From contig CAIQVH010000017.1 of NCBI GenBank assembly GCA_903875215.1, positions 62,001 to 126,000 of the forward strand: a stretch of 64,000 bases of DNA, given 5' to 3'. A program made the position numbers and the translations under genes. The DNA is from an uncultured Anaerolineae bacterium (GTDB taxonomy: Bacteria > Chloroflexota > Anaerolineae > Anaerolineales > Villigracilaceae). The notes beneath the pieces were generated by a model. The model saw nothing but the letters and a program-made list of their open reading frames with translations. It did not search any database and was not told the DNA's origin. Below are positions 35,236 to 53,718 of the stretch, one piece after another. How positions within the stretch are numbered: the first letter of the stretch is position 1; each line of letters starts with the position of its first letter.

Positions 35236-36261
35236 ATGAAGAAGCTCTATGCTGTTTTTGCGGTGTTGCTGGTCGCAGCCTTGCTACTCCCGGCCTGCGG
35301 CGCCAGCGGCACACCTGATTGCAGTAAGCCCGAAACCTTCTGCGTCGGCCTGGTGACGGATGTCGGCAAAATTGATGATAAATCCTTCAACCAGTCCGCC
35401 TGGGAAGGCGTCAAACAGGCCGAAAAAGACCTCGGAGCCGTGGTGCAGTACATCGAAACCACCGACGCCAAGGACTACGCCAAGAACATCAGCACCTTTG
35501 CCGAGGCTCAATACGATGTCATCGTCACGGTCGGCTTTGGGTTGGGCGAAGCAACCACCGCTGCCGCCCAGCAATATCCCGGCACCAAGTTTATCGGCGT
35601 GGACCAGTTCCAAGCTGCCGTAACACCTGGCGTGGCAGGGCTGAACTTCCCCGAAGATCAGGCAGGCTTCCTGGTCGGCGCGCTGGCCGCGCAAATGAGC
35701 AAGAGCGGCAAGATCGGCGGCGTGTTCGGCACCGACGCAGTCCCGCCCGTCTGGCGCTTTGGCGAAGGCTACCGCGCCGGCGCGCAGTACATCAACCCCA
35801 ATATTGAGATCTTCATCGTCTATCACAGCGATGTTGGCTTCGACAAGACCTTCAGCGATCCCGAATGGGGCGCTGCGACGGCCAAATCGATGATCGAAAA
35901 GGGCGCGGATATCGTCTTCGGCGGCGGCGGCAAGACCGGCAATGGCGCGGTCATCGGCGCAGTGGAAGCTGGCGCGCTTGGCATCGGTGTCGATACCGAC
36001 CAGTACTACACCCTGCCCGAAGCCCAGAAGGGCCTGCTTTCCAGCGCCATGAAGCTCATCACCCCAGGCGTCTTCGACCTGGTCAAGATGGCCAAGGACG
36101 GCGCTTTCCCGGATGGCAACTTCTTTGGTAAGGCTGCATATGCCCCCTACCACGACCTGGACAGCCAGGTTCCGGCGGAAGTGAAAGCCAAGATGGAAGA
36201 AATCAACAAAGCCCTGCTCGATGGCTCCCTGGCAACCAACGTTTCGCCCGTCAAACCGTAA
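35236..36261 (+). CDS. BMP-family ABC transporter substrate-binding lipoprotein
   Basis: 341 residues. Lipoprotein signal MKKLYAVFAVLLVAALLLPAC with lipidated Cys21. The mature protein begins VGLVTDVGKIDDKSFNQSAWEG, the hallmark of the Bmp/Med family (PF02608), which binds purine nucleosides in characterised members. A second signature is VFGGGGKTGNGAVIGA. It is the receptor for the permeases and ATPase encoded next. The frame runs far upstream, but the lipobox and GAGGAGA ribosome-binding site fix the ATG. A hairpin after the stop probably limits transcription into the permease genes. Confidence 0.93.
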   Translation: MKKLYAVFAVLLVAALLLPACGASGTPDCSKPETFCVGLVTDVGKIDDKSFNQSAWEGVKQAEKDLGAVVQYIETTDAKDYAKNISTFAEAQYDVIVTVGFGLGEATTAAAQQYPGTKFIGVDQFQAAVTPGVAGLNFPEDQAGFLVGALAAQMSKSGKIGGVFGTDAVPPVWRFGEGYRAGAQYINPNIEIFIVYHSDVGFDKTFSDPEWGAATAKSMIEKGADIVFGGGGKTGNGAVIGAVEAGALGIGVDTDQYYTLPEAQKGLLSSAMKLITPGVFDLVKMAKDGAFPDGNFFGKAAYAPYHDLDSQVPAEVKAKMEEINKALLDGSLATNVSPVKP

Positions 36262-36489: not shown

Positions 36490-37623
36490 ATGCAAGCTGC
36501 AGCAGAAAAACCGGCTCGAGGATGGTTTGTGCGTCTCTGGCGCGCCTTTGTTGAAGCGGCGCTTGTTCCCATCCTGGCGATCATCACCGCGGTGATTGGC
36601 GGCGGCATCATCATCTGGGTCGTTGGTGGAAATCCGTTTGCCGCATATCTCGGCCTGCTCCAGGGCGCTTTTGGCTCAACCCGCGCCTGGAGCGAGACCT
36701 TTGTATGGGCCACACCTTATATCTTTGCCGGCCTGGCGGTGGCTCTGGCCTTCAAAGGCGGCCTGTTCAACATCGGCGCCGAAGGGCAGCTGGCCTTCGG
36801 CGCACTGGCCGCGGCCTGGGTAGGGTATGCGCTGCCCAACCTGCTGGGTGTGCAGCTTCCGGGCTATATCCACCTGCCGCTTGCCATTCTCGCCGGTATG
36901 CTGGTGGGCGCCCTGTGGGGAGCCATCCCAGGCGCGCTAAAAGCCTACGCGGGCGGGCACGAGGTCATCAACACCATCATGATGAACTACATTGCCCTGA
37001 ACCTGACCAGCTTCCTGCTGAATGGACCCATGAAAGACAAAAACCCCCTGAATGTGATTGCGCGCACCCCCGAAATCGCCGAAAGCGCGCGCCTCCTGCC
37101 GATCTTTGCCAACCTGCGCATCCACTGGGGCTTTCCGCTGGCACTGCTGACGGCTTTCCTGGTCTGGTACCTGCTCTGGAAGACGACCCTTGGCTTTGAA
37201 ATCCGCACCGCCGGCTCAAACCCGGATGCCGCCAAATATGCCGGGATCAACTTCAAGCGCATCCTGGTGTTGACGATGGCGCTCTCCGGTCTGCTGGCCG
37301 GGCTGGCCGGGGCGGTGGAAGTGACCGGCCTAAACTATCGCCAGGAATTGGGATTCTCCATCGGCTATGGCTTCGACGCCATCGCCATTGCCCTGCTGGG
37401 CAAAACACACCCGCTCGGGGTCGTGCTTTCAGCCATTCTGTTTGCCGGCATGCGCAACGGAGCCACCCGCATGCAGTTCCTGACGCAGATCCCGGTGGAT
37501 ATCATCTCGGTCATCCAGGCGCTGATCCTGCTCTTTGTGGCCGCAGACGCCATCGTGCGTAAAATCTACCGCATCAAGGCCAGGGAAGACCGGCTGGTAC
37601 TGACTCGCGGCTGGGGCGGGTAG
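36490..37623 (+). CDS. ABC transporter permease, BMP/nucleoside type (first)
   Basis: 377 residues, about 10 hydrophobic segments. The cytoplasmic loop GGHEVINTIMMNYIALNLTSF and the segment FKGGLFNIGAEGQLAFGAL are typical of the inner-membrane subunits partnering BMP receptors. ATG follows AAGGGAGA. The second permease begins 8 nt after the stop; the two should form a heterodimeric channel. Confidence 0.92.
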   Translation: MQAAAEKPARGWFVRLWRAFVEAALVPILAIITAVIGGGIIIWVVGGNPFAAYLGLLQGAFGSTRAWSETFVWATPYIFAGLAVALAFKGGLFNIGAEGQLAFGALAAAWVGYALPNLLGVQLPGYIHLPLAILAGMLVGALWGAIPGALKAYAGGHEVINTIMMNYIALNLTSFLLNGPMKDKNPLNVIARTPEIAESARLLPIFANLRIHWGFPLALLTAFLVWYLLWKTTLGFEIRTAGSNPDAAKYAGINFKRILVLTMALSGLLAGLAGAVEVTGLNYRQELGFSIGYGFDAIAIALLGKTHPLGVVLSAILFAGMRNGATRMQFLTQIPVDIISVIQALILLFVAADAIVRKIYRIKAREDRLVLTRGWGG

Positions 37624-37631
37624 GAGGAATC

Positions 37632-38735
37632 ATGGACTGGCGTCGCTTTAGCTTCATCGGCATCATCATCATCCTGCTTTTCGGCGTGGTCGTGCTGATC
37701 GGCGGAGAGCAAATCTCGCCGCTCATCATCATCTCCAGCATGCTGGCCACAACCCTTTCCGTCGCCACACCGCTGACGCTGGGAGCGCTTTCGGGCATTT
37801 TCTGCGAACGCGCCGGGGTGGTCAACATCGGCATCGAAGGCATGATGCTGGCCGCCGCTTTCTTTGGCTGGCTGGCCTCCATCTACATGAATTCCATTTT
37901 CGAATATTCCCCCGCCATCAGCCTGACCATCGGCGTACTGGCAGCCATCCTAACCGGCGGACTGTTCGCCCTGCTGCACGCCTGGCTTTCGATCACCTTC
38001 AAAGTTGACCAGATCATCGGCGGAACGGTGATCAACATCCTGGCCATCGGCGTGACCGGCTTTCTCAACCGTCAGCTGTTCTTTGACAAAGGCAGCATCT
38101 TTGGTGGGAACGTGCCGCACGCGCCCGGGCTGCTGCCCACGCTCTCGAAAGCCCTGACCGTGCTCTGCAGCGGGGCACAAGGCTGCGGTGGGCTGCCCAG
38201 CCTGATTGCAGGCACCATCTTCGACCAGAAACCGGTCGCCATCTCGGCCATTCTCCTGGTCATCGTAGCCAATTATGTCCTGTTCAACACCCGCTGGGGC
38301 CTGCGCACGCGCGCCGTGGGCGAACATCCCAAAGCCGCCGACACAGTCGGGATTGATGTCCGCCGCGTGCGCTACATCAACGTTGTCATCGGCGGAATGC
38401 TGGCCGGGCTGGCAGGAGCCTACTTCACCATCGAATCGGTGCCTTCCTTTGAACCGCTGATGACCAACGGCCGGGGCTTTATCGCCCTGGCAGCCATGAT
38501 CTTCGGCAACTGGACACCCTTCGGCGCTTGGGCAGCTGCGCTGGTCTTTGGCGCATCCCAGGCCCTGCAGATCAACCTGCAATTTTTCCGCGAGTCGATT
38601 CCGCCAGCCTGGGCCTTCCTGCAGCAATCGTATGTGGTTGGGCTGGCGCCCTACATTCTCACCATGCTCATCCTGACCGGGGTGATCGGCAAGACCACGC
38701 CGCCCGCCGCGGATGGGCAGCCCTACGAGAAATAG
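37632..38735 (+). CDS. ABC transporter permease, BMP/nucleoside type (second)
   Basis: 367 residues, about 9-10 hydrophobic segments. It contains LGALSGIFCERAGVVNIGIEGMM, the conserved motif of this permease family, and the coupling segment GLRTRAVGEHPKAADTVGID. It is preceded by GTAGGAGG and separated by 9 nt from the ATPase gene, so permeases and ATPase form one transcription unit. Confidence 0.92.
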   Translation: MDWRRFSFIGIIIILLFGVVVLIGGEQISPLIIISSMLATTLSVATPLTLGALSGIFCERAGVVNIGIEGMMLAAAFFGWLASIYMNSIFEYSPAISLTIGVLAAILTGGLFALLHAWLSITFKVDQIIGGTVINILAIGVTGFLNRQLFFDKGSIFGGNVPHAPGLLPTLSKALTVLCSGAQGCGGLPSLIAGTIFDQKPVAISAILLVIVANYVLFNTRWGLRTRAVGEHPKAADTVGIDVRRVRYINVVIGGMLAGLAGAYFTIESVPSFEPLMTNGRGFIALAAMIFGNWTPFGAWAAALVFGASQALQINLQFFRESIPPAWAFLQQSYVVGLAPYILTMLILTGVIGKTTPPAADGQPYEK

Positions 38736-38744
38736 GAGACGCAC

Positions 38745-40298
38745 ATGGCAGAAAAATCACTTACGCTTGAAATGCGCGGCATCACCAAGAACTTCCCAGG
38801 CGTGCTGGCCAACGACCAGGTCGATTTTGACCTGCGGGAAGGCGAGATTCACGCCCTGTTGGGCGAAAATGGCGCGGGAAAATCCACCCTGATGAACATT
38901 CTCTACGGGCTGTATCAGGCCGAGGCTGGCGAGATCAAAATCGGGACAGAAGCCCTGCACCTGGATTCGCCCAGAGACGCCATCCGGCATGGTATTGGCA
39001 TGGTACACCAGCATTTCATGCTCATCCCGGTCTTCAGCGTCACTGAAAACATCATGCTCGGGGCTGAAACCGATCACCGCGCAGCACCAAATGACTCCCC
39101 GCTGGTCAGGCTCGACCGCCGCGAAGTGGCCAGACGGGTCCAGCAGCTTTCGCAGGAATACGGCCTGGAAGTAGACCCAAAAGCCATCGTCGGTGACCTG
39201 CCGGTTGGCGTACAGCAGCGCGTCGAAATTGTCAAGGCGCTCTATCGCCAGGCGCGCATCCTGATCCTGGACGAACCCACCGCAGTGCTCACGCCCCAGG
39301 AAGCGGATGACCTGTTTCGCATCGTGCACAAGCTGACACAACGCGGCGTTTCGGTGATTTTCATCACCCACAAGCTGAAGGAAGTGCTGGCCATCGCCGA
39401 TCGAATCACCGTGATGCGCGGCGGAAAAGTGGTCGGCACCACCACCCCCCAGGAAACCAACGAAAACCAGCTGGCCGCCATGATGGTAGGCCGCGAAGTG
39501 ATCTTAAAAGTGGAGAAAAGCCCCGCCCACCCCACCAGCCAGGTGCTGGAGGTGGACCATCTGCATGTGCGGGATGTGCGCGGACTGGAGGCGGTGCGCG
39601 GAATCTCATTCAACGTACGAGCCGGCGAAATCCTGGGAATAGCCGGTGTACAAGGCAACGGCCAGACAGAACTGGTCGAAGCGCTGACCGGCTTGCGGCG
39701 CTGCGAAAGCGGAACCATCAAATTGCAAAACCACGACCTGACCGGAAAAACTCCGCGCGCCTTCACAGAAACCGGGCTAGCGCACATCCCCGAAGACCGC
39801 CAGCGTCATGGGCTGGTCCTCAGCTACACCATCGCCGACAACCTGGTCCTATGCGATTATTACAAACCGCCCTTCGGCCTGCGCGGCGTAATCCAACAGC
39901 AATCGCTTGACAGCCATGCCCGCCAGCTGATTCAAGATTTTGACATCCGCACCCCCTCCCCCTACATCGCAACAGGGAAGCTCTCTGGCGGCAACCAGCA
40001 AAAAGTGATCGTCGCGCGAGAGCTCAGCCGCCCCGTCCAGCTGGTGATCGCCAACCAGCCAACACGCGGTCTGGATGTCGGATCAATAGAATACATCCAC
40101 AAAGAAATCATTGCCATGCGTGACCGGGGCGTGGCCGTTCTCCTGGTCTCGGCCGAATTGGACGAAATCATGTCGCTCGCCGACCGGATCGCCGTCATCT
40201 ACCACGGGCAACTCGTCACCACAGTCAACACCACCGCAGTCACCCGCGAACAGCTCGGCCTGTGGATGGCCGGCGCCCAGCCAGAAACAACAGCATGA
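38745..40298 (+). CDS. Double-domain ABC transporter ATPase, BMP/nucleoside type
   Basis: 517 residues with two ATP-binding domains. Domain 1 has Walker A GENGAGKST (40-48), signature DLPVGVQQRVEIVKAL and Walker B ILILDEPTAVL. Domain 2 has a degenerate Walker A GVQGNGQTE and a good signature LSGGNQQKVIVAREL. This asymmetry is usual in sugar and nucleoside importers, where one site is catalytic. The first NBR1-Ig lipoprotein gene starts 17 nt downstream with no terminator between, so it is probably transcribed with the transporter. Confidence 0.93.
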   Translation: MAEKSLTLEMRGITKNFPGVLANDQVDFDLREGEIHALLGENGAGKSTLMNILYGLYQAEAGEIKIGTEALHLDSPRDAIRHGIGMVHQHFMLIPVFSVTENIMLGAETDHRAAPNDSPLVRLDRREVARRVQQLSQEYGLEVDPKAIVGDLPVGVQQRVEIVKALYRQARILILDEPTAVLTPQEADDLFRIVHKLTQRGVSVIFITHKLKEVLAIADRITVMRGGKVVGTTTPQETNENQLAAMMVGREVILKVEKSPAHPTSQVLEVDHLHVRDVRGLEAVRGISFNVRAGEILGIAGVQGNGQTELVEALTGLRRCESGTIKLQNHDLTGKTPRAFTETGLAHIPEDRQRHGLVLSYTIADNLVLCDYYKPPFGLRGVIQQQSLDSHARQLIQDFDIRTPSPYIATGKLSGGNQQKVIVARELSRPVQLVIANQPTRGLDVGSIEYIHKEIIAMRDRGVAVLLVSAELDEIMSLADRIAVIYHGQLVTTVNTTAVTREQLGLWMAGAQPETTA

Positions 40299-40315: not shown

Positions 40316-41062
40316 ATGGCGCAACCCCGACCCGTTTTTACCGCACTACTTGCCTTACTACTGGCCGCCCTGGCCTGCAACCTGCCCTCCAACCAGACCC
40401 CCACCGCCCTGCCGGGCGAAGTCATGACGATTGCCGCACAGACCATCGAAGCCCAGCTGACCCAAAACAGCCTCCAAACTCCCCTCACCCCCACCCTGCC
40501 GCCGGGTTCCAACACCCCCGAAGCCCCACTCGCCACCTCCGCCCCCACTGGCACAGCCACCATCACCCCAACCTGCGACCTGGCCGAATTCGTCACCGAC
40601 GTCACCATCCCCGACGGAACCCCCTTCCTGGCCGGGCAAACCTTTACCAAAACCTGGCGCTTCCGCAACGCCGGTGTCTGTCCCTGGAACACCAGCTACC
40701 AACTGATTTTTGAAAGCGGCGAATCCATGAACGGCCCAGCCAACCAGCCCCTGGCAGGGACCGTAGCCCCCGGCCAAACAGTGGATATTTCCGTAAATCT
40801 GAAAGCGCCAGCCACTCCCGGCTCCTATCGCGGCTACTGGAAATTGCGCAACCCCGCCGGAGTGCTGATCCCAATCCTGCAAGGCCACAATGGCATTTCC
40901 TTTTTTGTGGATATCAAAGTGATCCCACCCACCGAGACTCCCGTCCCCACCTCCACCCCCACCCTCGGCCTGATCATCATCAACCCAATCTTCTTCAAAA
41001 CCCATACACCCACCCCCACCCTGGGCCTGATCATCATCAACCCACTCTTCCCCAAACCATAG
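40316..41062 (+). CDS. NBR1-Ig lipoprotein 1
   Basis: 248 residues. Signal peptide with lipobox LAALAC (Cys21), the short segment VMTIAAQTIEAQLTQNS, then a Pro/Thr-rich spacer. One Ig-like domain at about 85-205 resembles the NBR1 central domain, with FTKTWRFRNAGVCPW and SYRGYWKLRNPAGV. The C-terminus holds two near-identical copies of TPTLGLIIINP, 19 residues apart. It is exposed on the cell surface. ATG at 40316 follows AGAGGAGA; an earlier in-frame start lies inside the ATPase gene. It is the only one of the six paralogues directly joined to the ABC transporter. Its binding partner is unknown. Confidence 0.8.
   Translation: MAQPRPVFTALLALLLAALACNLPSNQTPTALPGEVMTIAAQTIEAQLTQNSLQTPLTPTLPPGSNTPEAPLATSAPTGTATITPTCDLAEFVTDVTIPDGTPFLAGQTFTKTWRFRNAGVCPWNTSYQLIFESGESMNGPANQPLAGTVAPGQTVDISVNLKAPATPGSYRGYWKLRNPAGVLIPILQGHNGISFFVDIKVIPPTETPVPTSTPTLGLIIINPIFFKTHTPTPTLGLIIINPLFPKP
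40954..41060 (+). repeat. 57-nt-spaced direct repeat in lipoprotein 1
   Basis: Two copies of a ~50-nt unit begin at 40954 and 41011. The first ~38 nt differ by one base; the remainder has diverged. They encode TPTLGLIIINP plus a Phe/Lys/Pro tail. This is a recent in-frame duplication. Confidence 0.8.
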
Positions 41063-41086
41063 ATTCCGCAGACCGGCAAACACCAC

Positions 41087-41120
41087 AAAGCGGAGGCCTG
41101 CAAAATCTGGCCTCCGCTTT
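41087..41120 (+). terminator. Terminator after lipoprotein 1
   Basis: Perfect 12-bp stem AAAGCGGAGGCC (41087-41098)/GGCCTCCGCTTT (41109-41120), followed by GTTAT. Confidence 0.85.
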
Positions 41121-41122
41121 GT

Positions 41123-41128
41123 TATAAT
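41123..41128 (+). promoter_or_regulatory. -10 box for lipoproteins 2-3
   Basis: TATAAT 2 nt after the terminator stem and 25 nt before the ATG of lipoprotein 2; the terminator occupies the -35 region. Confidence 0.55.
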
Positions 41129-41153
41129 AGAGAAGTTACCGAAAGGACAAAAA

Positions 41154-42140
41154 ATGACCCAGATCGGATATAGAACACTATCCCTGTTGACTGCCATCGG
41201 ATTGCTTCTCAGCGCATGCGGAAATGCAACAGCAACAGCCCCAACCCCCGACACCAACGCCATCGCCACCGCCGTCGTGCAGACAGTGGAAGCGCAAAAT
41301 ACCGTCCAGGCCCTGATAGAGTTGGCCACCCGCGTGGCCAACTTGCCCACCCCAGAGCCCGCCACCGCCACACCAGCGGTCGCACAGGGCCAGGTCTCCC
41401 CCACGCCCGAAGCCACCAATGTATCGTATGAATACAAGCCCGGCTGCGTTTACGCCACCTTTGTCGCCGATATTTCCATCATCGATGGAACCATTATGGC
41501 TCCCGGCACAGAATTCACCAAAACCTGGCGCATCAAAAATTCGGGCAGCTGCAAATGGGATGGCCGCTTCACACTGGTCTTCTTCAGCGGCGACAAAATG
41601 GGCGAGACCACCAGCATCCCGATTCCACGCGTCGTCTACCCCGGGCAGGAAGTGGACTTTTCGATTACCCTCACCGCCCCCAGTAGCTATGGAACTTACA
41701 CCGGCCAATGGCGTCTGGGCACGCCCGTCGGCACCGCCGGGGTTGGGCAGGCTGATCAGAATCTGCTCGTTTCCATCGAAGTTTCTGACAAACCCCAGCG
41801 CGATTTTGCCGTCACCAACGTTGCATACACCATCGTTAAGCGCGATCCGCAAAACGGATGCAACTCCGGACGCATTAAAGCTACCTACACTTACGTAGCT
41901 GAAATTACCGTCAACGCGCCGGGTGATGTCAAATACGAATGGGCCCGCACCCCCTTTGACGGCGTCCACGAGGATGGCAACCTGCACTTCGCAACAGCCG
42001 GCTCAAAATCAGTTACCTGGACATGGACCATGACCGACGATACGATCCAAAGCATCGATCGCCAAATCTGGATCATTACCACCACCGAATGGGACACCGT
42101 GGAATGGCCACGGCAATTGTTTAATTTCCACTGCCCATAA
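41154..42140 (+). CDS. NBR1-Ig lipoprotein 2, two-domain form
   Basis: 328 residues. Lipobox GLLLSAC (Cys22), the conserved NAIATAVVQTVEAQNTVQA segment, then a Thr/Pro/Ala spacer. The NBR1-type Ig domain (about 95-215) has FTKTWRIKNSGSCKW and TYTGQWRLGTP. A second, C-terminal beta domain (about 222-328) begins FAVTNVAYTIV and ends FNFHCP; its two cysteines could form a disulfide. The same module occurs in lipoprotein 3. ATG follows GAAAGGAC. It is surface-anchored; ligand unknown. Confidence 0.78.
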   Translation: MTQIGYRTLSLLTAIGLLLSACGNATATAPTPDTNAIATAVVQTVEAQNTVQALIELATRVANLPTPEPATATPAVAQGQVSPTPEATNVSYEYKPGCVYATFVADISIIDGTIMAPGTEFTKTWRIKNSGSCKWDGRFTLVFFSGDKMGETTSIPIPRVVYPGQEVDFSITLTAPSSYGTYTGQWRLGTPVGTAGVGQADQNLLVSIEVSDKPQRDFAVTNVAYTIVKRDPQNGCNSGRIKATYTYVAEITVNAPGDVKYEWARTPFDGVHEDGNLHFATAGSKSVTWTWTMTDDTIQSIDRQIWIITTTEWDTVEWPRQLFNFHCP

Positions 42141-42160
42141 ACAATAAGGACCGCCACCCC

Positions 42161-43120
42161 ATGACATCCCGTCGATTGAGCCTATGGTTGTTTTTTAGCA
42201 TCATCCTGACCCTGAGCGCCTGCAATCTTCCCAGGAACCAGGCCAGCACCGAAACCAGCCCCAATGCCGTCTTCACAGCTGCCGCGCAAACCGTGGAAGC
42301 ACAACTGACTCAAAACGCCCTGCTGGCACCGGCCACACCCGTCCCACCCAGCCCGCTGCCTGCCGCCACGATAGCGCAAACCGCTTTGCCCAGTGAAACT
42401 CCCCTGCCCCTGCCTCAAGACACCCCCGCCGGAACTCTGGTCACACCCATCTGCGATGCCGCACAATTCATCACCGACGTGACCGTGCCGGACGGGACAC
42501 AATACAGCCCCGGGACGCCCTTCACCAAGACCTGGAGGCTCAAAAACATCGGCGCCTGCACCTGGGATGCCTCATACACCATCCTCTTTGACACCGGCGA
42601 TGCCATGGGCGGCCCGGCTTCCATTCCACTGAGCGGCACTGTCGCCCCCGGCGAAACAGTAGATCTTTCCGTCAACCTGCTGGCGCCCGCCGCCAACAAT
42701 ACCTATCGTGGATATTGGCGTCTGCGCAACGGCGCCGGCGTAATGCTGCCTGTCAGCGGAGGGTATAACTCCAAATCCTTCTACGTTGAGATCAAGGTCT
42801 CAAACGGCTCCGGCGGCTCGAGCGAGACGCTATTCGCGGTTACCAGCATCGGATTCAATGTCAGCCGAAGCGGCACTTGCGCCTCCGGAAAATACGTCAT
42901 CACTGCCACCATCACCGTCTCCAAAGCCGGGCAGGTCACCTACAACTGGCTCTACAGCGACGGGGGCAGCGGCCCGAGCGGCAGCCTCGATTTCTCCGGC
43001 GCCGGGTCACAATCCATCAGCGTTGAATGGAATACCAACCTCACCGGTCTGTGGACCGACCTGTATATCGACAATCCCAACCACCAGCAATTCGGGCGGG
43101 CCACCCTCAACTGTCCATAG
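42161..43120 (+). CDS. NBR1-Ig lipoprotein 3, two-domain form
   Basis: 319 residues. Lipobox LTLSAC (Cys21), NAVFTAAAQTVEAQLTQNA segment, Pro-rich spacer. The NBR1-type Ig domain has FTKTWRLKNIGACTW and TYRGYWRLRNGAGV. The C-terminal beta module is shared with lipoprotein 2 (FAVTSIGFNVS, a Cys in GTCASGKYV, ending ATLNCP). The gene is 20 nt behind lipoprotein 2 without a terminator, so the two are co-transcribed and look like a local duplication. Closest to lipoprotein 1 in the Ig domain. Confidence 0.78.
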   Translation: MTSRRLSLWLFFSIILTLSACNLPRNQASTETSPNAVFTAAAQTVEAQLTQNALLAPATPVPPSPLPAATIAQTALPSETPLPLPQDTPAGTLVTPICDAAQFITDVTVPDGTQYSPGTPFTKTWRLKNIGACTWDASYTILFDTGDAMGGPASIPLSGTVAPGETVDLSVNLLAPAANNTYRGYWRLRNGAGVMLPVSGGYNSKSFYVEIKVSNGSGGSSETLFAVTSIGFNVSRSGTCASGKYVITATITVSKAGQVTYNWLYSDGGSGPSGSLDFSGAGSQSISVEWNTNLTGLWTDLYIDNPNHQQFGRATLNCP

Positions 43121-43137
43121 CGCCTGCAAGCCCAAGG

Positions 43138-43180
43138 AAAAGAACCCGCAGCAGACTGCCAGTCGTTGCGGGTTCTTTTT
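43138..43180 (+). terminator. Terminator after lipoprotein 3
   Basis: 13-bp stem AAAAGAACCCGCA (43138-43150)/TGCGGGTTCTTTT (43167-43179), ending in a T6 run. Confidence 0.88.
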
Positions 43181-43246
43181 TCTCTGGGAACTTTCGCCCA
43201 GTCCACAACGTCATGAGAGTATGGTGTTCCAACCCTGGAGGATTAT

Positions 43247-44626
43247 ATGTATTTAATAATTCGACAAATTTTGCTGACATTGCTGACTGCCCTGGCGCTT
43301 TCCGCCTGCACCTTGCCCGCCAGCACACCAGATGGCGCGGCCACCCTGCAAGCCGTGTACACCGCCCAGTCCGCCACCCTGCAAGCCATGAAAACCCCGG
43401 GCCTGCCACCCACGTCACCGGCCCTGCCAACCTTCATCATACCTACCCTGCCACCACAAAATGCCCTCCCGAGCCAGACCACCGCAGCCGCTCACAGCAT
43501 CCCCAGCATCACCCCGCTCCCCATTCTCCTGACAGTGACATCCACCTCAGCCCCCACCTACTGTGACTGGGCCGCCTTTATCAAGGACGTCACCGTGGCA
43601 GATGGCACCACCTTCGCACCTGCCGACCAATTCACAAAAACCTGGCGCATCCAAAACATCGGCACCTGCACCTGGACTTCAGCATACTCGCTGGTATTCT
43701 CCAGCGGCAACAGCATGGGCGGCCCGACAAGCGTTCGCCTGCCTGGCAACGTCAACCCCGGCGAGACCGTCGACCTGTCCGTCAAACTGAGCGCCCCCTC
43801 CGCGCTGGGCAGCTACCAGGGCTACTGGTTCCTGCGAAATGCCTCGGGCGTGCTGTTTGGCCTCGGGAATTCCGCCCAAAAACCTCTCTACGTCGACATC
43901 AAAGTCAGCGGCAGCCTGACCACCATCTTCGACCTCGTCACAGAATACTGCCACGCCGACTGGCGCTCCGCTGCCGGCGACCTGGGCTGCCCCGGCAACG
44001 TCAACGGCAAAAAAGGCTACGCCATCGACATCACCAACCCGCAGCTCGAAAATGGCCAGACCTACACCGGCCGCGGCCTGATCATGGTTCCCGAACTGGT
44101 CACCAACGGTTACCTGCAAGGTTACTACTACCCAACCTTCCACTTCCAAAAAGGCGACCGCTTCCGCGCCATCATCAACTGCCAATACCTTGCCAACGGC
44201 TGCAACGCCATCTTCCGCCTCGAATACCAGTCCGAAAAAGGCGCGCCCATCAAAACCCTGTGGAGCTTCAACGAACTCTATGACGGCCTATACTACACTG
44301 CTGACGTGGATCTCAGCCCCCTGGCCGGAAAGCAGGTCATCCTGATTCTGACCATCGCCTCCAACGGTTCCGCCACTGCCGACAAACTACTCTGGGCTGC
44401 CCCGCGCATCGACCGCCCCTCCAACCTGATCACCCCTTCATCCACCCCCACCCGCACCCCCACCCGCACCGTCACCCCAACCATCACTGCCACATTCACA
44501 CTAACCGCTACTCCAACCGTCACCGTCACCGCCACTGCCACCGCCTCGCCCACTGCAACTTTGACCCCCACCCCCACATCCACCCCAACCGAGACGGAAA
44601 CCCCCACCCCAACCGCAACACCGTAG
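43247..44626 (+). CDS. NBR1-Ig lipoprotein 4 with extra beta domain and Thr/Pro tail
   Basis: 459 residues, the longest paralogue. Lipobox LALSAC (Cys21), a diverged AVYTAQSATLQAM segment, then a spacer. The Ig domain (about 100-215) has FTKTWRIQNIGTCTW and SYQGYWFLRNASGV. A further domain of ~160 residues follows (FDLVTEYCHADWRS to KLLWAAPRI), beta-rich and perhaps a jelly-roll, with four cysteines. The last ~65 residues are almost pure Thr/Pro/Ala repeats, an unusual free low-complexity C-terminus that could be glycosylated. ATG follows CTGGAGGA. Confidence 0.75.
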   Translation: MYLIIRQILLTLLTALALSACTLPASTPDGAATLQAVYTAQSATLQAMKTPGLPPTSPALPTFIIPTLPPQNALPSQTTAAAHSIPSITPLPILLTVTSTSAPTYCDWAAFIKDVTVADGTTFAPADQFTKTWRIQNIGTCTWTSAYSLVFSSGNSMGGPTSVRLPGNVNPGETVDLSVKLSAPSALGSYQGYWFLRNASGVLFGLGNSAQKPLYVDIKVSGSLTTIFDLVTEYCHADWRSAAGDLGCPGNVNGKKGYAIDITNPQLENGQTYTGRGLIMVPELVTNGYLQGYYYPTFHFQKGDRFRAIINCQYLANGCNAIFRLEYQSEKGAPIKTLWSFNELYDGLYYTADVDLSPLAGKQVILILTIASNGSATADKLLWAAPRIDRPSNLITPSSTPTRTPTRTVTPTITATFTLTATPTVTVTATATASPTATLTPTPTSTPTETETPTPTATP

Positions 44627-44652
44627 AATCCATCCAGTGCGCTGGCTTAAGA

Positions 44653-44693
44653 TATAATCAAGATATGATCATGGCCGGTCCTAGAATCGGCCA
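44653..44693 (+). promoter_or_regulatory. -10 box and leader stem-loop for lipoprotein 5
   Basis: TATAAT at 44653-44658, then TGGCCG (44672-44677)/CGGCCA (44688-44693) forms a hairpin close to the expected 5' end of the mRNA. GGAGG lies before the ATG at 44711. Confidence 0.5.
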
Positions 44694-44710
44694 CATTCCC
44701 CGGAGGATAT

Positions 44711-45445
44711 ATGAACCGTTTCCTTAAACCAGCGCAGGCGGTCCTATTGCTCGCCTTCATCGCCACACTGACCAGCTGCACCCTTGGTCAGGCCGCGGAA
44801 CCCACCCCCACCGCAGTAGATGTCAACGCCGTCATGACCTCGGCCGCATCCACCGCTTTTGCCCAGCTGACCCAAATCGCCGGGCAGGCTTCGCCCACCA
44901 GCGCGCCCACCGAAACCCTGGCCCCCACCGAGACACAGGCCTCCCCCAACACCCCCGACCCTGGACAACCCACCGCCCAGCAGGCCGCCCAAATCACCGA
45001 TACCCCCATGGTGATCCTTGAACTTTCCCCCACCCTGCCAGGCCTGCCCGAAGTGCCAACGATGACCCCCGTACCCATCGTTGCCACCCCAAATCCAGGT
45101 CAGGTTTGCAACAACTCATCCTTCGTCGCAGATATGACCATCCCGGATGGCACCGCCTTCAAAGCCTGGGAGAAATTCACCAAGATCTGGCGCATCAAAA
45201 ACACCGGCTTCTGCGCCTGGGATGACGGATATGGCATCATCAACTGGAACGGGCCCGCCCTGGCCGGCGATAATAAATTCTTCTCCCCGGGTGAATACGT
45301 CCAACCTGGCGGCGAAGTCGACATGGTCATCAAAATGTATGCCCCCGGCGAACCCGGAGATTACATCTCCCACTGGGTCATGGTCAATGACCAGGGACAA
45401 ACATTTGGGACGGATCTGGTTGTCTACATCAAAGTCGTAAAATAG
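44711..45445 (+). CDS. NBR1-Ig lipoprotein 5
   Basis: 244 residues. Lipobox TLTSC (Cys23), NAVMTSAASTAFAQLTQIA segment, a long Pro/Thr/Glu spacer (to about residue 135), then one NBR1-type Ig domain to the C-terminus with FTKIWRIKNTGFCAW. The last strands (YISHWVMVNDQGQTFG) differ from the GYWxLR form of the other paralogues. It has its own promoter and terminator. Confidence 0.78.
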   Translation: MNRFLKPAQAVLLLAFIATLTSCTLGQAAEPTPTAVDVNAVMTSAASTAFAQLTQIAGQASPTSAPTETLAPTETQASPNTPDPGQPTAQQAAQITDTPMVILELSPTLPGLPEVPTMTPVPIVATPNPGQVCNNSSFVADMTIPDGTAFKAWEKFTKIWRIKNTGFCAWDDGYGIINWNGPALAGDNKFFSPGEYVQPGGEVDMVIKMYAPGEPGDYISHWVMVNDQGQTFGTDLVVYIKVVK

Positions 45446-45463
45446 TACTTTCTTGCCACCCCC

Positions 45464-45498
45464 ACCCCCGTCCCAAAATCACCGGGCGGGGGTTTTTT
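45464..45498 (+). terminator. Terminator after lipoprotein 5
   Basis: ACCCCCGTCCC (45464-45474) pairs with GGGCGGGGGT (45484-45493) with one bulged T, then a T6 run. Confidence 0.8.
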
Positions 45499-45522
45499 GT
45501 TATAGGATGATAAGTAGCGGTA

Positions 45523-45563
45523 TATAATCAAACTGGATCCCCAGCCGGACATTCACGGGATCC
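45523..45563 (+). promoter_or_regulatory. -10 box and 5'-terminal stem-loop for lipoprotein 6-queG
   Basis: TATAAT at 45523-45528. GGATCCC (45535-45541)/GGGATCC (45557-45563) starts at the predicted transcription start, so the mRNA would begin with a stem-loop. Confidence 0.5.
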
Positions 45564-45585
45564 TCCCATAGAAAATAGGTGCCAC

Positions 45586-46179
45586 ATGAAGAAAACTTTG
45601 CTAACCCTTGCCCTGATCCTGAGCCTCCTGCCCGCTGCCTGCGCGCCTGCCAGCACCGAACCAACTGCCACCCCTGTGGACATCAACGCCCTGCAAACCG
45701 CCGCCGTAAAGACCGTCGTCGCCAACGTGACCCTGACCGCAGACGCCCTCCCAAGCGCTACGCCAAGCCCAAGCGCACCACCCACCGAAACCCCTGTCCC
45801 GGCCCCCAGCGAAACCCCCACCCCCGCCGGCACCCCCACCCTCACCACCTGCGACGATGCCCTCTGGATTGCCGACATCTCCATCCCAGACGGTACCCAG
45901 CTGACCGCCGGGCAAGACTTCGTCAAAACCTGGAAGGTTAAGAACACCGGTTCCTGCACCTGGAAACCGGGTTACCAAATCATCCTGGCCTATGGCGACC
46001 GCATGAATGGCCAATCCACCGCCCTGACCAGCGAAGTCCCCGCCAACACCGAAGTGGAACTCTCCGTCAACCTGCGCGCGCCCGACAAAGCCGGCACTTA
46101 CAACGGCTACTGGACCCTGCGCAACAACAACGGCTACAACTTTGGCCAGCGGCTTTCCGTCATTATCACCGTGCCATGA
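45586..46179 (+). CDS. NBR1-Ig lipoprotein 6
   Basis: 197 residues, the shortest paralogue. Lipobox LLPAAC (Cys19), INALQTAAVKTVVANVTLTA segment, Pro/Thr spacer, then a single NBR1-type Ig domain running to the C-terminus (FVKTWKVKNTGSCTW, TYNGYWTLRNNNGYNFG). Its stop codon overlaps the queG ATG (ATGA), so queG is translationally coupled to a surface protein, most likely an accident of gene order. Confidence 0.78.
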   Translation: MKKTLLTLALILSLLPAACAPASTEPTATPVDINALQTAAVKTVVANVTLTADALPSATPSPSAPPTETPVPAPSETPTPAGTPTLTTCDDALWIADISIPDGTQLTAGQDFVKTWKVKNTGSCTWKPGYQIILAYGDRMNGQSTALTSEVPANTEVELSVNLRAPDKAGTYNGYWTLRNNNGYNFGQRLSVIITVP

Positions 46180-47228
46180 ACCCGGGCGAACTCGCCGCCG
46201 CCATCAAAGCACATGCCCGCCAGTTGGGTTTCCCCCTGGCGGGCATTACCACGCCGGATCCCCCCGCCCATTTTGGCCTTTACCAGCGCTGGCTGGAAGC
46301 CGGGCACCACGCCGGGATGACCTATCTGGAGGAAGAACGCGCCCGGCAACGCCGCGCCGACCCGCGCCTGATCCTGCCCGAGTGCCGCTCCATCCTCGTC
46401 CTCGGCATCCCCTACCACAGCCCGCAAACCGCCCCAACGCCTCAACCTTCCCCCGCCCGCGGACGGGTGGCCGCCTACGCCTGGGGCGACGACTACCACA
46501 TTCTCCTGCCGCCGCGCCTCGCAGCGCTGGTAAGCTTCATCGAAACCCAGGTCGGCGCGCACATCCCCAACCGCTGCTACACCGATACCGGCCCCCTGCT
46601 CGAACGCGAACTCGCCAGCCGCGCCGGCCTGGGCTGGATCGGTAAAAACACCTGCCTGATCGCCCCACAAACCGGCTCGTACTTTCTCTTGGCCGAAATT
46701 TTGCTTGGGATCGAACTCCCCCCAGATAGCCCCTACCCCGCCGACCACTGCGGCCATTGCACCCGCTGCATCGCAGCCTGCCCAACCGGCTGCATCCAAC
46801 CCGATCGCACTCTCGATGCCAGCCATTGCATCTCCTATCTCACCATTGAAAACAAAGCCGAAATCCCGCCAGACCTGCGCCCCCAGCTGGCTGACTGGGT
46901 TTTCGGCTGTGACATCTGCCAAATGGTCTGCCCGTGGAACCAACGGTTTGCCCCGCAGCACGGCGACCCGGCGTTTGCGCCCCGCAACGGCCTGCCGCTG
47001 CCCGTCCTGCAAGAGGAACTGACCCTGACCGCGCAGGAATTCAACCGTAAATTCAAAGACAGCCCGCTCAAACGCGCCAAACGCCGCGGATACCTGCGTA
47101 ACCTCGCCATCGCCGCCGGAAATGCCCGGGAGCCGGAAAGCCTGCCAGCCCTGGAAAATATCCAAGACGACGAACACGCCCTGATTCGCCCCCATGCCGA
47201 ATGGGCAATCAAACAAATCCGCGGGTAA
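46176..47228 (+). CDS. queG: Epoxyqueuosine reductase
   Basis: 350 residues; cobalamin- and Fe-S-dependent enzyme performing the last step of queuosine synthesis in tRNA. Two 4Fe-4S motifs are intact: CGHCTRCIAACPTGC and CDICQMVCPWN, with the active-site-side YTDTGPLLERELA and LGWIGKNTCLI. The C-terminal HEAT-like tail is short. It overlaps lipoprotein 6 by 4 nt, and rdgB follows at 33 nt. Confidence 0.94.
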   Translation: MNPGELAAAIKAHARQLGFPLAGITTPDPPAHFGLYQRWLEAGHHAGMTYLEEERARQRRADPRLILPECRSILVLGIPYHSPQTAPTPQPSPARGRVAAYAWGDDYHILLPPRLAALVSFIETQVGAHIPNRCYTDTGPLLERELASRAGLGWIGKNTCLIAPQTGSYFLLAEILLGIELPPDSPYPADHCGHCTRCIAACPTGCIQPDRTLDASHCISYLTIENKAEIPPDLRPQLADWVFGCDICQMVCPWNQRFAPQHGDPAFAPRNGLPLPVLQEELTLTAQEFNRKFKDSPLKRAKRRGYLRNLAIAAGNAREPESLPALENIQDDEHALIRPHAEWAIKQIRG

Positions 47229-47261
47229 AATCGGGTGTATCTCTCAGCCAGGAAGTCTACA

Positions 47262-47861
47262 ATGCAAAAATTGCTCATCGCCACCGGAAATCCCGGAAAA
47301 GTTAAAGAAATGCAGGCCTTGCTGACCGGTTTGGAAGTTGAACTGGTCACGCCAAAATTGCTCGGGCTGACGCTGGAAGTGGAGGAGGATGGTGCAACAT
47401 ACCAGGAAAATGCCGGCAAAAAGGCCCGCGCCTACAGCCAGGCCAGCGGCCTGATCGCGCTGGCGGATGATTCCGGGCTGGAGGTGCAGGCTCTCAATGG
47501 CGAACCAGGCCTTTATTCCGCGCGTTATTCGGGACGAGTGGGCGCAAGCGATGCTGACCGGCGCGCCTTTTTGCTGAGCAAACTGGCCGGCCGGCCAGGG
47601 CCGTGGGCGGCCCGCTTCCATGCCACCGTTGCTCTAGGCCAGCCGGATGGACAGGTGGAATTTGCGGAGGGAAACTGTTACGGGGAGATAATCTCCATCG
47701 AGCGCGGCGACAAAGGCTTCGGGTATGATCCGATTTTTCTGATTCCAACCTTGAACCGCACCATGGCCGAGCTGACCATGGACGAAAAAAACCGCCTGAG
47801 CCATCGCGCCCTGGCGGTGAAGCAAATCCGGCCAATGCTGGACAGGCTGTTCAGGCGATGA
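47262..47861 (+). CDS. rdgB: XTP/dITP pyrophosphatase (RdgB/HAM1)
   Basis: 199 residues; removes non-canonical purine nucleoside triphosphates. Family motifs: ATGNPGKVKEM at the N-terminus, LADDSGLEVQALNGEPGLYSARYSG in the middle and KGFGYDPIF near the C-terminus. ATG at 47262 follows AGGAAG; an in-frame start 27 nt upstream is outside the family N-terminus. The 3' end overlaps the convergent hydrolase gene by 11 nt, with no terminator between them. Confidence 0.94.
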   Translation: MQKLLIATGNPGKVKEMQALLTGLEVELVTPKLLGLTLEVEEDGATYQENAGKKARAYSQASGLIALADDSGLEVQALNGEPGLYSARYSGRVGASDADRRAFLLSKLAGRPGPWAARFHATVALGQPDGQVEFAEGNCYGEIISIERGDKGFGYDPIFLIPTLNRTMAELTMDEKNRLSHRALAVKQIRPMLDRLFRR

Positions 47862-50552: not shown

Positions 50553-51947
50553 CTAAAAGCCCTGGTAGACGAATCCCGCAAGGTTGGCGGCGCTGCCCAA
50601 AAAGAGCACCAGGAGGAACAATGCGGCGCCGAGGCCCCAGGCTTGCGCGCTCGGACTCCAGACCATGAAGAAGTCTTCGCGGGCGGAGCTTATTTCCTGG
50701 CGGTCAAGCCACAGTGAAAAGATGGTTAACAGGAAAAAGTCGGGGAGCAGGGTCAGATCGATGGCTCCGGTCAAGTGCCACAGCCCCGAAAGGTAGAAGC
50801 GCGCTGAGGCGGTGCTGGCGGCTGTAAATGGAATCCAGGCCAGGGTGGTGAGGGTCAAGGTCAAGAGTGTTGCAGCGGTCAGTTTCCAACGAGAATCAAC
50901 CGGGGGGCGCAGACGCAGGAGTTGTTCCAATGCCAGGTAAAGACCGTGCAGGCCGCCCCAAAGCAGCATGGAGAGGTAGGCTCCGTGCCAAAATCCACTG
51001 GCGAGCATGGTCATCAGCGGCGTGAGCAGGTTGACCAGGCCGCGTGGGATGCGGTTTTGCAGCATCCAGCGCTGGAGGGGGTAGAAAAGATAGTCGCGCA
51101 GCCAGCTGGAAAGGCTGATATGCCAGCGTTTCCAAAAGTCGGTGACGGTGGATGCGAAGAAAGGTTGGCGAAAGTTGGGGCTGAGTTCGATTCCGAACCA
51201 GGCGCTCAGCCCGCGAACCATGGAGGTGTAACCGGCAAAGTCGTTGTATAGGGTAAAGGCGAAGATGATGATCCAGCTGGCGCGGGTGAGCGGGGAGAAA
51301 TCGGCGGGCTGGGTGAACAGGCCGGCGGGGCGAAGCGCTGCCAGGTGATCGGCGATCACGAGTTTGCGAAGCAGGCCAAGCAGGATGAGGCCCAATCCAC
51401 GACCCAGGCCGCTAGAATCGAGTGGGCGAGGCGAATCCAACTGAGGCAGGAAGGTTTTAGCGCGTTCAATCGGGCCAGCCAGCAGCTTGGGAAAATAAGC
51501 CAGGTACAGCGCAAAGTGAATCAAGCGGGTTTCCGGCTGAAGTTGACCGCGGGATACATCCACAAGATAAGAAATGGCCTGCAAAATGTAAAAAGAGAAA
51601 CCGACTGGCAGCAGCGCAGCGGTCCAGCCAGGGGCCAGGCCGGGGGCCAGCAGGTTGGCGAAGACCGTCCCATAAGGCCCGGATAGGAATTTGAGCAACC
51701 CAAAGGAAGCCAGGTTGAGGCCCAGTGCGGGCCAGAGCCAGGCTTTTTGAACAGGCAGGCGCAAGGCCAGGACGTAGTTAAAGCCAGTTAAAGCGGCCAG
51801 GGCCAGGGCGTAGGACCAGCCAAAGGTGAATAAAAAACCATAAGAAGCGGCCAACAGCCACAGATTGCGCCAGCGGCGCGGTAACAGGTGGTAGCCTGCC
51901 AGGGCTGCCAGAGATAGGATGAGAAAGGGCAGAGAGACGATGGCCAT
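50553..51947 (-). CDS. MBOAT-family O-acyltransferase (AlgI/DltB-like)
   Basis: 464 residues, about 11 transmembrane segments. It carries the MBOAT core: TDFWKRWHISLSSWLRDYLF and the catalytic-His region SGFWHGAYLSMLLWGGLHG. Such proteins pass acyl groups, usually acetyl, across the membrane to surface polysaccharides with an SGNH partner, which is encoded directly upstream and shares one base with this start codon (TAATG). It is the last gene of the glycan operon. The frame extends upstream inside the SGNH gene, but the ATG at 51947 is the family start. Confidence 0.92.
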   Translation of the reverse strand: MAIVSLPFLILSLAALAGYHLLPRRWRNLWLLAASYGFLFTFGWSYALALAALTGFNYVLALRLPVQKAWLWPALGLNLASFGLLKFLSGPYGTVFANLLAPGLAPGWTAALLPVGFSFYILQAISYLVDVSRGQLQPETRLIHFALYLAYFPKLLAGPIERAKTFLPQLDSPRPLDSSGLGRGLGLILLGLLRKLVIADHLAALRPAGLFTQPADFSPLTRASWIIIFAFTLYNDFAGYTSMVRGLSAWFGIELSPNFRQPFFASTVTDFWKRWHISLSSWLRDYLFYPLQRWMLQNRIPRGLVNLLTPLMTMLASGFWHGAYLSMLLWGGLHGLYLALEQLLRLRPPVDSRWKLTAATLLTLTLTTLAWIPFTAASTASARFYLSGLWHLTGAIDLTLLPDFFLLTIFSLWLDRQEISSAREDFFMVWSPSAQAWGLGAALFLLVLFLGSAANLAGFVYQGF

Positions 51948-52969
51948 TAGTGAGAGAGGCCCTGAGGGGATAACCGGCTTAATTGGCCGCCCAGCCAGCG
52001 CGAGAAGACCGGCGCGCCGCGGGAGTTGACATGCAGTGAATCGTACCAAAAGTCAGCCGGCAGGCTGTTGGACAGGTTAACGGTTCGCAAGAAAGGAATA
52101 TTGCGGGCGGCAAGATCAGTCTGCACCGGCTGGATAAAACGCTGTTCGTACCTTTGCGGCGTTTCAAGGTAGATTTGCCGGTAAGCTGGCTGGATCGGGG
52201 CTTCGACAAAGATGACAACCGTTTCGGGCTGGTTTTGGATGCTTTCAAAGCCCTGCCAGGCAGACTGGGCTGGAGAAAAATCCACAAATGCCGGAAAATT
52301 GACGGGCGGGTCGCGGAATTCTTGCAGTGGTGAAAAGCCCTGGCGCGTCAGCGCATGGTATTCCTGCAAGAATGGGGCGCGGTTTTCCGGGCGCAGCCAG
52401 TATTGCAGTGCCAGACGGTAGCGATAGCCGCCGGCATAATTGACCAGCCAGCCTTCCAGCGATGCCTGGCCCAGGTTTTGCCGCACCCAGGCAGTCTGCA
52501 AAAGCGGGGCAGTCAAATCGCCATATTCAATAGAAAAATCTCGCGCCGAAAGAACAATGATCAGTATATGGGGCTGATAGCGTCGGAGCAGGGCTCGGGC
52601 AATATCTCCGCCACTTGCCATGGTCAGCGCAGAAAGGCCAAAGTTGAAGCAATGCAGGGTCTGGCCGGTTTCCTGGGTATAGACCTGGTCAATGATCAAC
52701 GGGTCGAGGCCGCTGTTGGCCATTGAACTGCCCACGATGAGACAATCCAGCCGGCCATAACGGCGAATAAACTGTTCGAGATAGTGGGTTTTTAGATCGA
52801 ACTGAAAATTATCCGCGCCGACGCTGGGCGGGAGAAAATCTCCCAGCGGGGAACGCAGCAGGGCCTCTGCCAGGAGGCTCCAGAGCAAGATCAGCGCCAG
52901 GAAAGCCAACAGCCCGCGCATCAGCGGGCTGTGCAGGCTGGGGTGAGGGCGGCGAGAGGCAGGTTCCAC
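51947..52969 (-). CDS. SGNH-like membrane-anchored acyltransferase partner (DltD/AlgJ-like)
   Basis: 340 residues. One N-terminal transmembrane helix (LLAFLALILLWSLLAEALL) and a large extracytoplasmic domain. The SGNH nucleophile lies in CLIVGSSMANSGLDP, and the C-terminal Asp-His pair in YDSLHVNSRGAP. Paired with the MBOAT gene it should complete O-acylation of the secreted glycan. The start is a GTG at 52969; an internal ATG at 52921 (MRGLLAF) is an alternative that leaves only the helix. Neither has a clear ribosome-binding site. Confidence 0.8.
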   Translation of the reverse strand: MEPASRRPHPSLHSPLMRGLLAFLALILLWSLLAEALLRSPLGDFLPPSVGADNFQFDLKTHYLEQFIRRYGRLDCLIVGSSMANSGLDPLIIDQVYTQETGQTLHCFNFGLSALTMASGGDIARALLRRYQPHILIIVLSARDFSIEYGDLTAPLLQTAWVRQNLGQASLEGWLVNYAGGYRYRLALQYWLRPENRAPFLQEYHALTRQGFSPLQEFRDPPVNFPAFVDFSPAQSAWQGFESIQNQPETVVIFVEAPIQPAYRQIYLETPQRYEQRFIQPVQTDLAARNIPFLRTVNLSNSLPADFWYDSLHVNSRGAPVFSRWLGGQLSRLSPQGLSH

Positions 52970-52978
52970 AAGCGGCGG

Positions 52979-53713: not shown

Positions 53714-53718
53714 GCCTC

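Follow-up and report, generated by a model that had tools for sequence, protein, structure and literature searches.

In a 64,000-nucleotide stretch of DNA from an uncultured Anaerolineae bacterium (contig CAIQVH010000017.1, positions 62,001 to 126,000; hereafter the window), six consecutive genes encode predicted lipoproteins that each carry one FW domain, the Ig-like domain of family PF16158 (N_BRCA1_IG) shared with human ILRUN and NBR1. The array is an old, ordered block of position-specific FW proteins in Anaerolineales, and it follows the genes of a BMP-type ATP-binding cassette (ABC) importer. We tentatively read the six proteins, with a probability of about 40%, as stalked cell-surface ligand-capture proteins that would work with this importer.

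All six array genes match PF16158 far beyond chance (77.5-99.1 bits, E 1.4e-21 to 2.6e-28; curated Pfam cut-off 28 bits), with exactly one FW domain in each protein. The original prediction, made from the letters of the DNA alone, had described six consecutive genes with homologous Ig-like domains of the NBR1 type, and the profile search that it proposed as a check bears this out, all six lying above the cut-off. The motif that it took to be shared is also real: a near-invariant pair of cysteines is found in 119/120 and 121/122 of the FW domains aligned from related arrays, one of them being the Cys of G-x-C-x-W, and we infer that the two would form a disulphide. At the second of these positions ILRUN has E and both NBR1 and CtNbr1 have V; the first lies outside those alignments. 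Of the four-Trp FW signature (beta2, beta2-3 linker, beta5, beta6), three Trp are present in each of the six genes. The beta6 position reads F, L, Y, Y, V and S in genes 1 to 6, and across the 122 domains W in 23, Y in 43 and F in 22. Because the beta6 Trp is absent in all six, we class the array domains, by sequence, as PF16158 members of a three-Trp kind. None of the six proteins scored above the cut-off of any NCBIfam model, and in PHROGs the Thr/Pro-rich stretches of genes 4 and 6 matched family 15511 (function unknown; E 4e-7 and 9e-7).

AlphaFold2 models of two of the six array proteins, covering the FW domain and the C-terminal module that follows it (module B in gene 4, 43544-44422, pLDDT 91.9; module A in gene 3, 42440-43117, pLDDT 92.8), were compared with the PDB. 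The modelled FW domain of gene 4 superposes on human ILRUN (6VHI) with Z 16.6 and 1.4 Å over 108 residues, and that of gene 3 with Z 16.5 and 1.5 Å; the two also match NBR1 (4OLE; Z 15.2 and 15.8) and CtNbr1 (7VQO; Z 14.4 and 14.5). Profile and models together thus uphold the NBR1-type Ig fold. When three eukaryotic sequences were compared, genes 4 and 6 gave 65.8 and 52.9 bits with ILRUN, and 33.8 and 46.1 bits with NBR1; an ILRUN-like ancestry was considered for this reason but not adopted on so few sequences. A longer first strand (F-x-x-D-V-T-I) is common to ILRUN and the array FW domains.

The source genome (3.77 Mb, 38 contigs) encodes 18 FW domains, six of them in the array. FW domains were present in all 41 genomes searched within the same order, source genome included, at 1 to 20 per genome; across the phylum 117 of 400 genomes matched, 96 of them above cut-off, and 14 control genomes gave no match. 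A scan of named genomes returned 58 loci, all from Chloroflexota and mostly from metagenome-assembled genomes of Anaerolineae or Anaerolineales. The contig of the window also carries, outside the window, a pair of adjoining FW genes that have diverged strongly (47 and 44 bits; L042:6179-7621; G000 C17:44574-45578).

The age and order of the block were apparent from a comparison of related loci, in which the recurrent gene order is importer, X-FW, FW-A (FW-A), FW-B, FW, FW, QueG, RdgB. We found 49 runs of at least two FW genes and used the 24 with at least four for a tree and a census; loci with fewer FW genes stayed outside the tree. Seven loci fetched twice (L029, L031-L033, L038, L064, L089) were counted once, the near-identical pairs L113/L127 and L091/L092 were kept, and L098 was excluded from the structure alignment, its reading containing X. 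Since the search pattern was derived from FW-A genes, arrays without FW-A are under-sampled. Position labels (P1 to P6) were assigned from gene order and from the C-terminal modules, which lie outside the tree columns. On the tree of the 122 FW domains from these 24 arrays the six labels need 6 changes, the minimum being 5, while shuffled labels need 75.9 on average and none of 200 shuffles came as low as 6; labelled by genome, the same tree needs 115. P4, P5 (24 genes) and P6 (21 genes) each form one side of a branch, with support 86, 92 and 95, and P1 and P3 need 2 and 3 changes. The array positions are, as judged from these sequences, orthologous across arrays and not sorted by genome.

The original prediction had attributed the array to local duplication and divergence, and had suggested comparing copy number across related genomes. 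That comparison revealed lineage-limited duplications, namely an extra FW-A gene (gene 2, P2) in 5/24 arrays and a second P5 in 2/24 (L030, L112). Position groups shared by 24 arrays, the fixed order and the fixed neighbours nevertheless speak against such an origin, and the sorting of the FW tree by position led us to discard recent local duplication.

The neighbours, which the original prediction had not mentioned, are mostly constant. In 21/24 arrays the closest upstream marker gene is an importer gene, no more than 800 bases away (within 300 bases in 18), the others comprising two contig edges and one true miss (L132). QueG lies at most 10 bases downstream of the array or overlaps it in 18/24, with two contig edges and four true misses. 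Three relatives of the same genus have a split array, with FW6 (or FW5-6) and QueG elsewhere (L031/L050, L032/L051, L033/L052; L032 stops at its contig end). In the window, gene 1 starts 17 bases after the end of the importer ATPase gene, the gaps between genes 1 to 6 are 91, 20, 126, 84 and 140 bases, and gene 6 shares 4 bases with QueG; from this spacing we infer that the block is co-transcribed. Promoter and terminator scans gave results close to those of shuffles (5 versus 4.1 and 18 versus 14.8, respectively).

The importer itself comes in two arrangements at the arrays, BMP-PermA-PermB-ATPase, as in the window, and BMP-BMP-ATPase-PermA-PermB, and the two were not seen together in any of 21 stretches. 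The importer ATPases fall into two clades that correspond to one change, with support 92 and a median identity of 74% within and 62% between clades. The FW-B tree for these 21 loci, by contrast, requires 5 changes of arrangement, all 5 forced by well-supported branches. Repeated replacement of an importer by another BMP-type importer at a fixed site would produce such an alternation, and would argue for a working link between importer and array. We know of no set of FW lipoproteins that forms part of BMP/PnrA-type importers. The features of the block are collected in the table.

Table. Features of the array and its neighbours in the window (positions in window coordinates).
Feature	Position	Strand	Evidence and remarks
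FW lipoprotein 1 (P1)	40316..41062	+	PF16158 86.2 bits; short tail only; ORF open from GTG 40262
FW lipoprotein 2 (P2), FW + module A	41154..42140	+	PF16158 89.5 bits
FW lipoprotein 3 (P3), FW + Ig-like module A	42161..43120	+	PF16158 77.5 bits
FW lipoprotein 4 (P4), FW + module B + Thr/Pro-rich tail	43247..44626	+	PF16158 86.4 bits
Module B, CBM51-like beta-sandwich	43925..44416	+	Fold match; Pfam no match
FW lipoprotein 5 (P5), long linker, FW only	44711..45445	+	PF16158 80.2 bits
FW lipoprotein 6 (P6), FW only	45586..46179	+	PF16158 99.1 bits
BMP/PnrA-type substrate-binding lipoprotein (PF02608)	35236..36261	+	Pfam 170.2 bits, cut-off 24.1
ABC importer permease A (PF02653)	36490..37623	+	Pfam 178 bits; putative B6 permease NCBIfam 170 bits, cut-off 400
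ABC importer permease B (PF02653)	37632..38735	+	Pfam 137 bits; putative B6 permease 126 bits, cut-off 465
ABC importer double ATPase	38745..40298	+	PF00005 twice; putative B6 ATPase 519 bits, cut-off 670
QueG, epoxyqueuosine reductase	46176..47228	+	TIGR00276 343.5 bits, cut-off 200
RdgB/HAM1 family NTP pyrophosphatase	47235..47861	+	TIGR00042 171.2 bits, cut-off 145.35; conserved neighbour

The architecture of the proteins is consistent with display outside the cell. From the N terminus they run through a signal peptide with lipobox, a short stalk motif, a Thr/Pro/Ser/Ala-rich linker and the FW domain to the module. Of the six lipoboxes originally predicted, the five in genes 1 to 5 are conventional (ALAC, LSAC, LSAC, LSAC, LTSC), whereas that of gene 6 (LPAAC) is atypical, with Pro at -3, and this is the sole window gene outside the lipobox pattern, which 19/21 P6 genes pass. 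The lipobox pattern, on which the lipoprotein calls rest rather than on a signal-peptide predictor, is present in 106/122 array proteins; the 16 misses comprise two shortened open reading frames, one ambiguous base and 13 proteins with QLAC, QAAC or similar by eye. A stalk motif, T-x4-T-x2-A, occurs in 93 of the 106 lipobox proteins (shuffled mean 22, maximum 34), and the linkers contain, by position, a mean of 57-62% Thr, Pro, Ser and Ala over a median length of 61-94. These signals back the lipid-anchored, stalked design that had been proposed. In the source genome a profile of the stalk picks up all six array genes and one FW-FW gene, and gives weak matches to two further lipoproteins. The latter are non-FW proteins (L155:880-1650, E 8.7e-5; L156:1447-2589, E 0.049), the second with an SH3_3 domain.

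The C-terminal parts differ from gene to gene, as had been predicted: gene 1 has a short tail, genes 2 and 3 have module A, gene 4 has module B and a Thr/Pro tail, and genes 5 and 6 have none. In most arrays positions 1 to 4 carry a second beta-sandwich module, and P1 in many relatives bears module A, B or C. Since the P1 FW domains cluster but for one extra change, although what follows them may be A, B, C or no module at all, we conclude that modules have been exchanged. The tail of gene 1 (40900-41059) holds two near-copies of a TPTLGLIIINP-type sequence where many P1 relatives carry the module. The module B model matches CBM51 structures (2VMG, 2YGL, 2VNG) at Z 13.9-14.3, the best with 2.7 Å over 133/145 residues, and the next-best folds are meprin/MAM and Eph domains at Z about 12 to 11; Pfam gave no match to it up to E 10, PF08305 included. 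The source genome has 6 copies, and the module is present in 19/25 genomes. Module A is Ig-like with generic matches only (Z 8.5-8.8; PKD and FlgD_ig below cut-off), and module C gave a weak CBM96 match, below cut-off, in one relative alone (E 0.007). Among the loci fetched, module B is almost always accompanied by FW. We also noted a lipoprotein in which FW is joined to a CAP domain, that of cysteine-rich secretory proteins (L048:7112-8170, G000 C18), as well as FW-B-FW-B and B-FW-B proteins lacking an evident lipobox (L044:6180-8291, L047:7070-9901, L083, L085, L041).

A candidate binding site is suggested by CtNbr1, in whose FW domain W763 and F651 sandwich an N-terminal Gly-Gly; D654 and D658 point towards its amine, and the floor is made up of W672/L762. 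The available text of that study, by Zhang et al. 2022, proposes N-terminal recognition as the conserved FW mode (PMC9233695). The CtNbr1 numbering was set by hidden Markov model alignment, in which F651, D654, D658, W672 and R761-W763 align as in the same text; at some early columns two of the 122 rows have no letter, hence n = 120. The F651 equivalent is aromatic in 105/120 domains, that of D654 is Asp or Glu in 114/120, and those of D658 and W672 are each conserved in 121/122 (Asp and Trp, respectively). All six array genes keep these four, with Trp for F651 in gene 6, and the L762 equivalent is F or L in all six. The equivalent of the W763 wall is aromatic in 24/24 P1, 24/24 P4, 20/24 P3 and 16/21 P6 domains. 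As far as alignment can tell, the complete pocket is typical of P1 and P4 only, and the remaining positions retain its acidic end. A single chemistry with different ligands would resemble this pattern.

In the mechanism that we propose, the FW lipoproteins would be lipid-anchored and displayed at the cell surface on stalks, where they would assist the importer much as surface binding proteins support uptake. With its aromatics and two acids, the FW pocket may bind a free amino terminus or some other small ligand that bears an amine; further contacts may come from modules A, B and C, probably with glycan in the case of module B; and the divergent positions would either serve different ligands or belong to a single assembly. 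Binding of polymers, cells or nutrients, as suggested in the original prediction, may also be what the proteins do. The substrate of the importer is unsure: the binding protein points to the BMP/nucleoside class, and the nearest named models, all below cut-off, to vitamin B6. A firm nucleoside-importer label was dropped, and 'nucleoside' is doubtful, because the permeases and the ATPase most resemble putative vitamin B6 importers.

Several observations weigh against this surface-capture reading. As to the importer, the best NCBIfam models for permeases and ATPase are those putative B6 importers, none above its cut-off. When the importer labels were shuffled on the FW-B tree they needed 7.2 changes on average, and 38-47 of 500 shuffles were as low as the observed number, which amounts to slight clustering. 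The five changes could instead stem from differential loss of an ancestral pair. The ATPase of L102 sits on a long branch at equal distance from the two types, that of L090 is partial, and the support of 92 for the ATPase split is not starred. The source genome has five BMP loci, of which one is at the array; FW-QueG pairs without importer occur, and 12/18 FW domains of the source genome lie outside the array. As to the pocket, the W763 wall is aromatic in 3/6 array genes and 88/122 domains, being mostly lost in P5 (4/24 aromatic) and P2 (0/5); the F651 equivalent is aromatic in only 9/24 P3 domains, and R743 has no conserved equivalent. The conserved Asp and Trp may also be structural, and such conservation would look similar. 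The trees are quick ones, and in the FW tree, with its 120 columns, the inner forks are weak, although the position sorting is not. Finally, module B, whose conserved ending had suggested NPCBM, reached an hhalign probability of 2% with one NPCBM domain of the source genome; on this, and with no Pfam match, its status as a true NPCBM/CBM51 member was dropped.

A possible account that has to be taken seriously is a cell-surface coat (for cell contact, sheath or biofilm) in which FW and the A, B and C domains serve as structural spacers or as adhesive modules, importer and QueG being neighbours only by inherited order. The stalked multi-beta-sandwich design would suit such a coat, as would the FW-FW, FW-B-FW-B and FW-CAP proteins distant from the importer, the likeness of the array FW domain to a sialidase's Ig linker (Z 8.5, 2.3 Å, 21% identity) and the exclusively generic Ig matches of module A. 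However, five switches between two importer lineages at one place are unexpected of idle neighbours, and several pocket residues rank among the best conserved.

It is unlikely that the FW lipoproteins recognise peptide N-termini for scavenging or display, unrelated to the substrate of the importer. This would draw on the CtNbr1 precedent (PMC9233695) and on a pocket that is conserved, and complete in P1 and P4. The adjoining importer, however, has a binding protein of the BMP class and not a peptide-binding one, and the pocket wall is mostly lost in P2 and P5. We consider quite improbable a broader proposal, in which the FW proteins would be co-receptors of the importer and their pocket, the one that reads Gly-Gly in fungal Nbr1, would in origin be a clamp of general use, gripping flat groups with an amine between two aromatic rings and two acids; at the cell surface it would hold the substrate class of the importer (nucleosides, nucleobases or B6-like rings), and eukaryotes would have reused it to read the N-termini of autophagy cargo.

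A role of the block in queuosine-precursor salvage, whereby the importer would take up a precursor for the QueG pathway and the FW proteins would help to bind it, appears very improbable. On its side are the 4-base overlap of FW6 with QueG and the surroundings of QueG in 38 genomes, of which 25 have an FW gene immediately before QueG, 11 have none and 2 leave no room for one; in one of the latter (G006) the FW match is, by coordinates, 3 bases from the QueG match. This census excludes one genome with a partial QueG match (G015), and two further genomes gave no QueG match. Moreover, QueC matches in 25 relatives, the source genome counted among them, are all partial and weak (fewer than 80 of 210 positions, at most 37 bits; 17 genomes pass the Pfam cut-off), while E. 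coli, B. subtilis and other control genomes were matched, and Tgt is present in 23/25. These Anaerolineales therefore look like queuosine-precursor salvagers, in which precursors would probably be imported. QueG acts late in the queuosine pathway, on tRNA, which counts against the salvage role, and 19/25 relatives, source genome included, already have PF02592, the known family of preQ transporters. An unnamed ABC family (PF00005) is among the untested candidates for queuosine-precursor transport in PMC11130926, yet 'BMP' does not occur in the available text of that paper. About 4 kb past the array, on the minus strand (50553-55191), an MBOAT acyltransferase and an O-antigen ligase-like Wzy_C protein mark what is perhaps a surface polysaccharide region.

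That the array is a lineage-specific, recently duplicated set diversified locally is hardly credible, for the extra FW-A and P5 genes and the variable module after P1 fit it, but the domains sort by position over 24 arrays and not by genome.

With up to six divergent FW proteins in a set order beside a defined importer class, the block makes bacterial FW function testable, and the alternating importers are a gene-order signal that points at a partner. Module B is brought to light as an unannotated CBM51-like domain family in relatives. In the literature searched, beyond whose reach much subscription literature lies, we found no published account of the FW-lipoprotein block, its importer, its position-specific modules or the module B family, and no assigned function for bacterial FW domains.

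Among known systems, bacterial FW domains were reported in 2012 by Marchbank, with Chloroflexi among the hosts (PMC3357945), as repeated in a review whose available text calls NBR1, of which the FW domain is a hallmark, the archetypal selective autophagy receptor (PMC9582228). The bacterial types of that report include XRE-FW and tandem-FW proteins, and tandem FW proteins are also found in the present genomes; its section on the subject covers transcription regulators, tandem FW and membrane proteins, and contains no lipoprotein block or importer link (PMC3357945). Module B shares the CBM51 fold without detectable sequence kinship. The binding protein of the window is of the same class as that of BMP/PnrA-type importers, whereas its permeases and ATPase lie nearest to the putative B6 models. 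NBR1 autophagy receptors have PB1, ZZ and UBA domains, none of which was found in the array proteins, where Pfam gave only PF16158 and one sub-threshold PKD match. Altogether, the array domains resemble those of human ILRUN and NBR1 and of fungal Nbr1 in their PF16158 match, Ig-like fold and F/D/D/W pocket core, and differ from them in a predicted lipid-anchored position outside the cell, an extra Cys and a fourth Trp absent from all six.

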